A stretch of 25,926 bases of DNA from a virus. Under the pieces are notes generated by a model. The model ran no database searches. It was not told where the DNA came from and was given only the letters and a program-made list of their open reading frames with translations. The translations under genes and the position numbers were made by a program. This document shows positions 22,778-25,926 of this stretch, in pieces (the first letter of the stretch is position 1; each line of letters opens with the position of its first letter). The stretch lies in the IMG/VR virus record IMGVR_UViG_3300027754_000382, positions 1-25,926 of that record; one strand, written 5' to 3'.

Positions 22778-22784
22778 TTGTCAA
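22778..22784 (-). promoter_or_regulatory. TTGACAA box before the start at 22763
   Basis: TTGACAA in the 11-base CTAGTTGACAA covers the TGA stop of the large terminase gene and ends 14 bases before the ATG at 22763. The TTG of this box is itself an in-frame potential start codon. Confidence 0.4.
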
Positions 22785-24562
22785 CTAGGTGTTCCAGACG
22801 TGTCTTCAATGTCTGGAAGCAGTCTAAAAATTAAAGCGCAGACAATTTGCATGCACTCAGTGTCCCACAGGTGATTGTCTTTTCTGGTTCGCACCCATTT
22901 TAATTCGGATTTTTTCGTTCGAGGATTTAGTGTTTCCCGTTTTATCTCAGAATTCATTTGCTTCAGATAAGAAGGAGACACATCTCGAGGGAACTCCCAC
23001 ATGGGTGGACCAACCATGCGCAGGCGAGCAAGAATATCTTTTACCCCTTCATTGCACCAAGAGATCCCGGCAATTTGCGCAGGAATGTTTGTTCCGGGGC
23101 GTTTAACCGTTGGAGCAACCACAAAACGAGGTTCACTCCAGAAATGACGCCGTTTGTCTTTATGTGTAAAATACGGTTGAGCGGTCCCAAATAGCAAATG
23201 CCATCCAAATTTGGCTGCCACATCAAATATTCGACCGTCCCCAGATTCGCCTTTGCCTTCTTGTTCTTTGTACCGTCCATCAAGAAATGTCATCTTGTCT
23301 TTGACCTTGTATCTCAATTGCAACGCCCGCAAATCTTGCGCGTTCAATATTTGACCTTCCCAGAGTAATTTTGAGTACGTGTTCGATGAAAACGCTCGAA
23401 TGCATGCCCAGAACGAATTTTCCTGAACATCCACGGTCATAAAGCGAACTCGCTCGTTATCGATCAACTGTCCGTCTCTGAAATCTTCCAATGAATAATC
23501 GGAACTTTCCAGCGCCATCGTGGGCAAATCCGCATCCGGTTTCCACATTTGCGCCTGTCGCTTCTGCTTAAATTGTTTCAGTGGTTCAAGGTTCCCGCGT
23601 TGTTTTTCATCCATCGCGTTCAGCCATTCAAAAACGAGATTTTTCCACTCAATCCACCAGACTGCTTGAGCGGTCCATGTCCGCATCCGGTGACCGGCTA
23701 AGAAATTCCCGCCGCGCCCCCTGTAGCATCCAAGTCTAGACATTTCACGCCTTGCTCCGGTCGTGTCCTCGGTTTTCAAACCACAAACAGAACATTCGTG
23801 GTGAACCGATTTTCCAATCGCATTCCAATCCCATTCACCATCCGGCGTTTTGATTTGCTCGAATTTGATATCCGTCCAAGGGTAATTCGACCAGTTTTCG
23901 CAATCTCGACACTCTGTGCCCCACTCAAAAACCTCTGCATTCGAGACCTCTTTTTCCAACTCATGGCCCGCATCAAAACCCTGCGACACCAACAACGTGA
24001 GCGAAGCATACCGGTCGTGATGTCTCTTTTTTAGTTCGCCGATCATCCCGTCTTTCCATCTCCAGACCTCATCCCCGATACAATATCTAAGACTTTTTTC
24101 CTGCAAACTCGATAAATTTGCCCCCACGAGGTAAAGCGGAGCATGCCCAAAGAAAATAGCCGTTTTCCTTTTTTGGTGTCGATCCGTTGGGAACAATCTT
24201 GAAACCGGTTCGCACAGGTTGAACATTGGCAATAGTCGCTCTTCGGCAAATTCTTTACAGAGATCATCCGTCTGCCCAACAAGCATCGACGGTCCGGGTC
24301 TAGCCGCGATCATAAAGCACAGGCTAGTCTCCAGCAGGGTGGTTTTCCCTCCTCCAGTTGGAGCAATCACAATTTCGCACCGGATGTGATCATCTCCAAT
24401 GTCCTCGTAAATTTCATTCAGCCACGGAGACGTATCCCGCATGAATTGACTGGATCGAGCAGAATGGGGGATTCTTACATGCTGTTCCAGCCAGTCTACT
24501 GTGGAACCCTTAAACCTCGGCTGGAAGCCCAGTAATAGCCCTTCATTGATCGGATTTGGCAT
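22781..24562 (-). CDS. Terminase large subunit, lambda gpA type
   Basis: 593 residues from the ATG at 24562; the extra 26 residues of the longer frame overlap the upstream gene. The ATPase domain has A67-P-T-G-G-G-K-T74 (Walker A) and C-I-G-D164-E165 (Walker B). Two Cys pairs, C218/C221 and C257/C260, form the zinc-like insertion usual in gpA relatives. The nuclease domain shows V-D378-V-Q, L-D428-G-R-Y and W-D567-T-E as acidic metal-site candidates. The enzyme cuts concatemers and drives DNA into the head with the portal. A gpA-type enzyme suggests cos-type packaging, but the cut site is not seen. It overlaps the upstream gene by 20 bases. Confidence 0.92.
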   Translation of the reverse strand: MPNPINEGLLLGFQPRFKGSTVDWLEQHVRIPHSARSSQFMRDTSPWLNEIYEDIGDDHIRCEIVIAPTGGGKTTLLETSLCFMIAARPGPSMLVGQTDDLCKEFAEERLLPMFNLCEPVSRLFPTDRHQKRKTAIFFGHAPLYLVGANLSSLQEKSLRYCIGDEVWRWKDGMIGELKKRHHDRYASLTLLVSQGFDAGHELEKEVSNAEVFEWGTECRDCENWSNYPWTDIKFEQIKTPDGEWDWNAIGKSVHHECSVCGLKTEDTTGARREMSRLGCYRGRGGNFLAGHRMRTWTAQAVWWIEWKNLVFEWLNAMDEKQRGNLEPLKQFKQKRQAQMWKPDADLPTMALESSDYSLEDFRDGQLIDNERVRFMTVDVQENSFWACIRAFSSNTYSKLLWEGQILNAQDLRALQLRYKVKDKMTFLDGRYKEQEGKGESGDGRIFDVAAKFGWHLLFGTAQPYFTHKDKRRHFWSEPRFVVAPTVKRPGTNIPAQIAGISWCNEGVKDILARLRMVGPPMWEFPRDVSPSYLKQMNSEIKRETLNPRTKKSELKWVRTRKDNHLWDTECMQIVCALIFRLLPDIEDTSGTPS

Positions 24563-24995
24563 CTTTTCGTTTCTTGTGATGTTCGTGTGCGAGTTTTCGG
24601 TACACATCCCGGGTCCATTCCGCTTTTCGGTTTGGTCCAATCGGGAGTCTCAAAAAATTTGTCCACTCAATGCAAAGTTTTGAGATCCACGCCACCGAAA
24701 CATTTTCTCCACGGGCAGCCTCGCGCATCGTTTTGTACCCCGTGACCCAATTGCAACCGGCAGCAAACGCCAACGCTAGGGCTCTCATGCGAACGTCACC
24801 CGGCTTTAACAGCCCGGACAGCAAAAGCGAAATCCGGTTTGAAAACAAACTGACAGGGGCAATGTCCCGTTGTGAGTGAATGTACTCCATCAAATCCCTC
24901 AATTCCCGATCGGATATTGATGGAATGATATCACGCAAAATCTCCGATTCAGCATCGAGATCACCATAAGGGAAGGGTGTGGATGGCTCTTTCAT
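24543..24995 (-). CDS. HTH-containing protein between small and large terminase
   Basis: 150 residues. A helical N-terminus (S-D-R-E-L-R-D-L-M-E-Y-I-H-S) precedes a hydrophobic middle (A-L-A-L-A-F-A-A-G-C-N-W-V). A helix-turn-helix candidate follows at residues about 88-110 (M-R-E-A-A-R, G-E-N-V-S-V-A-W-I-S-K-L-C), and the tail is strongly basic (H-K-K-R-K-D-A-K). The HTH resembles those of DNA-binding small terminase or regulator proteins. A separate Nu1-like gene lies upstream, so this may be a second packaging protein or a regulator that binds the repeats just before it. No family name is certain. Confidence 0.65.
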   Translation of the reverse strand: MKEPSTPFPYGDLDAESEILRDIIPSISDRELRDLMEYIHSQRDIAPVSLFSNRISLLLSGLLKPGDVRMRALALAFAAGCNWVTGYKTMREAARGENVSVAWISKLCIEWTNFLRLPIGPNRKAEWTRDVYRKLAHEHHKKRKDAKSDQ

Positions 24996-25280
24996 CTGTA
25001 GTCACCCACACTTAACACACCCAAAACACACCCATTTTCACACTGTAAGTTGTTGCTCATAAATTAGTTAAGCCTAAAAACACACCACCCACACTTTTTT
25101 GGAGAGATAGACCCTATAGTGCGCATACATGTGCATACAGGCGTATGTATGTATATATATATATTTATATATTTATATAGTGTTTTATGTGTTTATATGT
25201 CTTAAGTTCTTAAAAATGAAAAACTTGTGACACACACATTCACCCACACCCTCTGTGGGTGGCGTGGGTGAACTTGTGTT
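24996..25280. other. 285-base non-coding block with repeats and AT-rich core (packaging site or origin candidate)
   Basis: No credible gene lies here. From left to right it holds CACCCACACTT at 25003-25013, two AACACACCCA copies 11 bases apart (25014-25023, 25025-25034), a second exact CACCCACACTT at 25086-25096, and CATACAT/ATGTATG inverted copies at 25124-25130 and 25145-25151. An almost pure A/T tract spans about 25150-25180, and a CACCCACAC-based hairpin lies at 25239-25272. Repeated short boxes around an easily melted core are the layout of a replication origin, and multiple TerS boxes next to terminase genes are the layout of a packaging site. Either is inference. Confidence 0.55.
25239..25272. 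repeat. Perfect inverted repeat (9-base arms) after the small terminase gene
   Basis: TTCACCCAC at 25239-25247 pairs exactly with GTGGGTGAA at 25264-25272, and inside it a CACCC/GGGTG pair can form a nested stem. It lies nine bases beyond the small terminase stop in the direction of transcription. No U-run follows directly, so it may be a structured terminator, an mRNA end-stabiliser, or part of the binding-site array, since the arms contain the CACCCAC box. Confidence 0.5.
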
Positions 25281-25904
25281 TTACTCTGATTCTACCTCCT
25301 CGGCTTTCTGGAGGGCTTCGATAAATCGCTTTTCCATGGTGTCGAGGCGGGCTTGAAGTTTTGCCTTTACGGTCAGTTCGTTTTCACCGGCAAGCACTCC
25401 GGGAGTGTCGCCAACAATCGACAGCAGTTCGGCTGACAAAAGACTCCCAGCCTTCAGTGATGCTTCTCTCACCTTGTCTCTCGAGATGTACTCGCCTCGT
25501 TTCCTTGCCAGTTCAAAGTCCAACGACTCCACCTGACGGAGAACTTTCATTTTGGCCAATTGGGTATGTGTGTAAACGTCTGCCGCAACAATTGGAGCAG
25601 TCCCCTCCCCCACCCCTTCGTCAGAAACCTCCCCTGCCCTCCCCTGTCCCCTGCCCGCTCGGTTGTCTTTCAGTCTCTGAACATACCCAAGCACTGACCC
25701 CTTCAAATCAAAAGTCCCCTCCCCTACCCTTTTGGTGACATTTTGGTCGGCAAGTTCGTATGTACGCTGCTCAGAAATGCCTAAAATGTCCGCTAATGCC
25801 CCTCCGGTACATACCCAGCCATCAAATGATCTGACTCTTTGGTCAGGTGCCTTCACGGGCTTTTTAAGGCCACTATCAAGGGTTTTGTTTTTTTGTTTAC
25901 TCAT
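25281..25904 (-). CDS. Terminase small subunit, Nu1-like
   Basis: 207 residues. Residues about 33-78 carry a winged-HTH of the lambda Nu1 kind: L-A-D-I-L-G-I-S-E-Q-R-T-Y-E-L, then a wing with G-T-F-D-L-K-G-S-V-L-G-Y-V-Q-R-L. A Gly/Arg/Glu linker (about 80-105) follows, then a helical region (L-A-K-M-K-V-L-R-Q-V-E-S-L-D-F-E-L-A) resembling the self-assembly part. It recognises the packaging site and recruits the large subunit, encoded two genes downstream. The linker DNA has dense G-tracts on the coding strand. The ATG at 25904 has no Shine-Dalgarno sequence. It is the first late gene in the window. Confidence 0.85.
   Translation of the reverse strand: MSKQKNKTLDSGLKKPVKAPDQRVRSFDGWVCTGGALADILGISEQRTYELADQNVTKRVGEGTFDLKGSVLGYVQRLKDNRAGRGQGRAGEVSDEGVGEGTAPIVAADVYTHTQLAKMKVLRQVESLDFELARKRGEYISRDKVREASLKAGSLLSAELLSIVGDTPGVLAGENELTVKAKLQARLDTMEKRFIEALQKAEEVESE
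25631..25656 (-). other. G-quadruplex-like G-tract cluster in the small terminase gene
   Basis: On the coding strand the segment has five tracts of three or four G within 26 bases (complement of C-runs at 25631-34, 25637-39, 25641-44, 25648-51 and 25654-56). More G-runs flank it at 25602-25616 and 25716-25729. This fits the general G-quadruplex pattern. It codes for the Gly/Arg linker, so amino acid composition may be the sole cause. Confidence 0.4.
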
Positions 25905-25926
25905 AGAATTTGCATTCGCGGCTCAC

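Follow-up and report, generated by a model that had tools for sequence, protein, structure and literature searches.

A conserved array of sequence boxes between the small terminase gene and the P150–TerL genes of a phage, with a possible role as an operator

The window analysed here, 25,926 bp long, is an entire viral contig. Its 285-base gap at 24996–25280, between the genes for the small terminase (terS) and the HTH-type protein P150, is a genuine cis element, strongly conserved and of a common type, namely phage operator or packaging-recognition DNA. Between the window and L003 (TerL 93% identical), the one contig that carries the orthologous gap and thus the second of the two sequences on which conservation of the region rests, boxes C and D of the gap are identical at 65 of 66 positions, compared with 37 of 90 four-fold sites of the genes on either side (Fisher p 5e-16), which argues that the gap is a selected cis element. 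We tentatively propose that it is the operator/promoter region of a P150–TerL operon and that P150 is probably the protein that reads it.

Late genes lie on the minus strand in the order terS, gap, P150, GpA-type TerL, small gene, portal, protease and capsid, and the gap fits exactly between the terS stop (25281) and the P150 ATG (24995), both belonging to minus-strand ORFs (Table 1). Read along the late strand, it runs from the hairpin box pair A through an A-rich block, an A/T tract, three 10-bp units and box C to box D, which stops a few bases short of the P150 start codon. The repeats listed in the first-pass annotation could all be located: two CACCCACACTT boxes (25003–25013 and 25086–25096, read from the sequence), a third box, CACCCACAC (25241–25249), an inverted box with the core TGTGGGTG (25254–25261), a pair of AACACACCCA copies with a spacing of 11 (25014–25023 and 25025–25034), the inverted copies CATACAT (25124–25130) and ATGTATG (25145–25151), which fall in a stretch less conserved than boxes C and D, and an A/T tract at ~25149–25179. 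Beyond these we found a 24-nt inverted repeat right after the terS stop (25227–25284), a third 11-bp unit in register (GGGTGTGTTTT/GGGTGTGTTAA/GTGTGGGTGAC) and the three 10-bp units, which end in an invariant GGGTCTATCT. Box C carries AAAAAAGTGTGGGTGGTGTGTTTTT on the late strand, and the GGTGA of box D may double as a ribosome-binding site for P150.

Table 1 Features of the gap and of the genes around it (positions in the window; identities are to L003)
Feature	Position	Strand	Remarks
TerL, GpA-type large terminase	22781–24562	-	PF05876 E 2.5e-21; PF20454 E 2.6e-16
P150, 150-aa HTH-type protein, basic C-terminal tail	24543–24995	-	Probable reader of boxes
Box D, 11-bp units GGGTGTGTTTT/GGGTGTGTTAA/GTGTGGGTGAC, then TACAG and P150 ATG	24996–25033	-	37/38 identical
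Box C, TCCAAAAAAGTGTGGGTGGTGTGTTTTT	25076–25103	-	28/28 identical
Three 10-bp phased units ACGCCTGTAT/GCACATGTAT/GCGCACTATA and invariant GGGTCTATCT	25104–25146	-	36/43 identical
A/T tract, TATATAAATATATAAATATATATATATA	25149–25180	.	27/32 aligned columns in 25147–25180 the same
A-rich block, TTAAGACATAYAAACACATAAAACA	25181–25205	-	24/25 columns the same; possible promoter/-10 area
Box pair A, inverted CACCCAC.CC / GGTGTGGGTGAA	25227–25284	-	Strong hairpin just 3' of terS stop, without U-run
TerS-like gene, 207 aa, small terminase	25281–25904	-	phrog_57 terminase small subunit, E 2e-11
Contig end, probable physical genome end (cos)	25905–25926	-	22 bp upstream of terS; by analogy with nine distant relatives

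The 8-mer TGTGGGTG occurs four times in the block, a count matched by 4 of 1000 dinucleotide shuffles, the 9-mer GTGTGGGTG three times (matched by 2 of 1000) and an 11-mer twice (matched by 13 of 1000). Four of the five copies of TGTGGGTG in the 25.9-kb window are inside the block. In a scan for repeated 9-mers the block ranked joint first in the window and clearly first in L003, with a score of 20 (next 10; mean 1.1). The sole other close box match, TTGTGGGTGGGTGAA at 295–309, lies 25 kb off within a RecT-like gene. A likeness of GTGTGGGTG to yeast telomeric repeats was rejected as composition.

Silent sites of the flanking genes are near saturation between the window and L003, and the spacer separating boxes C and D is identical at only 25 of 41 positions. 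Judged from this alignment, purifying selection acts on the box sequence itself, and a sequence-specific reader is needed. Synonymous positions in the first 40 codons of P150 also seem more conserved, with 27 of 35 codons identical compared with roughly half further on. Exact-pattern scans of viral contigs with three box patterns returned L003 only, plus a chance match in L094 without related genes. Searches with the P150 protein found two close contigs, to which a profile search added distant homologues without these boxes; TerS protein searches gave no match in phage records or viral contigs, and a DNA similarity search of the block against known phages gave none.

The likely start of TerL overlaps the end of P150, and the two probably form one co-translated operon. 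P150 has a pI of 9.2, rising to 10.4 in the C-terminal 40 residues. It has no Pfam or PHROG match, its profile produced only unusable matches among PDB sequences (KorA-type HTH proteins, E about 0.9), and its AlphaFold model, with a mean pLDDT of 52, is too poor to judge a DNA-binding mode. From the anatomy and phasing of the gap, its conservation, the gene order and the P150–TerL overlap we infer a binder, a promoter and a regulatory effect with its direction, and hypothesize that a DNA-binding protein, most likely P150, would bind the GTGTGGGTG-type boxes, that is, the A pair, C and the three 11-bp units of D, which would surround an AT-rich, easily bent segment. Such binding would control P150, TerL and the late genes that follow at the level of transcription, independently of terS, and the hairpin downstream of the terS stop could serve to mark or shield the 3' end of the terS mRNA. 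The selection on boxes C and D described above, the position of box D against the start codon of P150, the overlap of P150 with TerL and the apparent conservation of the first 40 P150 codons favour this operator reading.

The operator reading also draws on the late regulators of other phages, as the P150 family sits where Ltr/RinA proteins sit. The target promoter of an Ltr protein contains imperfect repeats to which the protein binds (PMC13123087), and in Ltr/RinA systems such as the phage Phi13 P23 promoter an imperfect-repeat array is placed upstream of the late packaging and structural genes, with a small HTH-type regulator gene beside it near terS/terL (PMC13123087). Likewise, boxes A, C and D are directly upstream of P150–TerL, and the small basic P150, encoded adjacent, is the putative binder. 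In contrast to those systems, the putative regulator gene here follows the repeats and lies between terS and terL; we found no sequence relation between P150 and Ltr, and the host is probably a member of the Verrucomicrobiota, to which the cellular TerL relatives of the phage group mainly belong. Nor was a vegetative promoter recognised beside the repeats: a sigma-70 search of the late strand gave nothing convincing in the window and one 9/12 match in L003 only, which weighs against the operator reading, as does a hairpin that lacks a U-run. A T7-like promoter, CACTATAGGG, at the third 10-bp unit was taken as coincidence, L003 having CATTACAGGG at this place.

P150 homologues are widespread, with members in many phages of the wider group, and usually follow a DnaB-like helicase gene where the replication cluster ends, a short distance ahead of the terminase genes. 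In a second clade (G008, L023 and L030) a non-coding array of AGTGCCGCAAAACT, direct and inverted, lies directly upstream of the P150 homologue, which is next to the helicase gene, across cos and away from terS. The array of G008 is by far the most repetitive stretch of that genome, and the exact AGTGCCGCAAAACT motif was found there only upstream of the P150 homologue. These array sites (L047:1600-1900 in G008, L023:1-240 and L030:3880-4170) also hold a C9-TATAA-G11 hairpin. Because the array accompanies P150 in the second clade while terS is elsewhere, P150 seems to us a likelier partner of the boxes than TerS. Against the operator reading, most P150-bearing relatives (G003, G004, G009, L067-L089) lack a box array ahead of P150, and G009 (L032) seems to have lost the array with its flanks kept; the two clades also have different motifs, the P150 model is poor and the region is known from two sequences. 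As far as these sequences go, the link between array and P150 is one that recurs in two clades with different motifs and is not general. Two related phages contain long non-coding period-5 arrays (GGCNN, about 40 units; L074:1080-1320 and L093:1430-1690), one of them interrupted by hairpins.

A more speculative extension, which we consider improbable, is that array and P150 together form a movable regulator-operator cassette that changes motif and place, following the helicase gene in the second clade and lying between terS and terL here. It would have split the terminase genes in this clade, such that TerS and TerL would be expressed separately or P150 would act in packaging.

The main rival to the operator reading is a remote TerS-binding site, in which TerS would bind boxes in direct and inverted orientation that flank a bent AT-rich core and would anchor the terminase, with TerL cutting ~650 bp away at the contig end; we regard this as unlikely. 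Nine contigs of related phages, whose TerL is about 41-43% identical, share one end position 26 bp ahead of the TerS-type start, and G003 and G008, the two complete genomes among the fixed-end relatives, have the same 12 bases at both ends (GGTAAYCAWACT), as filled-in 12-nt cohesive ends would give; G008 differs from the end-search pattern by one base and was counted from its own sequence. Fixed ends at this position were seen in G003 and G008 (L042/L010, L046/L047), G002, G005-G007, G010-G012 and G014, and several of these relatives have DNA-modification or methyltransferase-like genes inserted between cos and terS. By analogy in position, the end of our contig at 25926 is probably the physical genome end (cos), and the gap would therefore lie ~650-930 bp inside the genome. 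Since the ends of the relatives lie 26 bp upstream of the TerS-type start, and our contig ends 22 bp upstream of its own terS, a cut site in the gap is unlikely, and the genome cut probably lies elsewhere. We also rejected a cut inside the block as the window and L003 contigs read through it; the 98%-identical contig L002 does have its first base precisely at the block's right edge (P150 ACAGATG), but this is probably an assembly break and weak against nine identical ends. The first-pass annotation had offered a packaging site, an origin or operators for this block, and among these the operator fits best, packaging in its cut-site form is unlikely and the origin has a general look only.

That the block adjoins terS, near the probable genome end, and that the boxes are nearly confined to it are consistent with binding by TerS. 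So is the N-terminal part of the TerS-like protein, which differs from that of relatives without boxes; residues 120-190 of the protein are ~37-40% identical to TerS-type proteins of related phages. The mixed orientation of the boxes, which would be putative TerS sites, and the bendable centre recall lambda cosB, ordered R3-IHF-R2-R1 (R3-I1-R2-R1) with R2 inverted (PMC4669245), and both systems have a small-terminase gene beside the boxes and a GpA-type TerL. However, a lambda-like cosB must adjoin cosN (R3 at about bp 48-59), and moving it spoils nicking (PMC4669245), so that a cosB of the lambda type is unlikely in the gap. Where cosB lies within about 50-170 bp of the left end, between cosN and terS, the block is downstream of terS and about 650-930 bp from the cut as placed at 25926, whereas the conserved element of the relatives, coding or not, is within about 60 bp of theirs. 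The motif also differs from that of lambda, and the block has no exact IHF consensus between the boxes or elsewhere, the only match being one with a single mismatch (25215-25227) and the number in the window being no more than chance. Finally, the array of the second clade accompanies P150 and not terS.

Within terS we noted a G-rich repeat cluster on the minus strand (25595-25725; GGGGAGGGGAC twice and GGGCAGGGGACAGGGGAGGG) at 200-330 bp from the probable genome end; the contig has no other G-quadruplex-type motif. The cluster might form a structure or act as a TerS site. The L003 contig stops just past it.

A replication origin, in which an initiator, P150 or some other protein, would bind phased iterons beside an AT-rich unwinding zone, is improbable. 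The block does combine three 11-bp and three 10-bp phased units with an AT tract of ~30 bp, as do lambda ori and iteron plasmids, and P150 homologues occur in the replication cluster behind the DnaB-like helicase gene. The repeats here are nonetheless shorter and of mixed orientation, the neighbours are terS and P150 with no initiator, helicase or other replication gene adjacent, the block contains no DnaA box (TTWTNCACA), and GC skew, which the first-pass annotation had named as a check, does not turn there. The loss of the analogous array in G009, with flanks kept, shows that it is dispensable in that phage and also speaks against an origin.

Least probable among the readings we graded is an RNA element in which the terS 3' hairpin, with its left A arm pairing with boxes C or D, would form an attenuator or processing site. 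In the window both the hairpin (z -5.6) and the whole-block RNA (z -4.5) fold well, and either A-right or box C can serve as pairing partner of the left A arm. In L003 the hairpin is strong too (z -3.1) but in a different pairing register, and the whole block reaches only z -1.8, not reliably better than shuffles; an Rfam search gave no match, and boxes C and D are kept letter by letter with no compensatory change. Because the hairpin registers differ and the L003 fold is near that of shuffles, DNA sites are a better reading than structured RNA. The hairpin has no T run after it and was not called as an intrinsic terminator. A partition site built on the 11-bp repeats was rejected, as no ParM- or ParA-like gene is adjacent.

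In general, the gap provides a cis element in a phage group probably infecting Verrucomicrobiota, for which our literature search found no regulatory study, and the cut site of this genome should be sought at the contig end rather than in the gap. The two boxes offer an exact target of ~66 bp for binding and reporter tests. The impact is local, being confined to how a single late operon is controlled in a single group of uncultured phages; a movable cassette that re-wires terminase expression, if true, would raise the interest of the finding.
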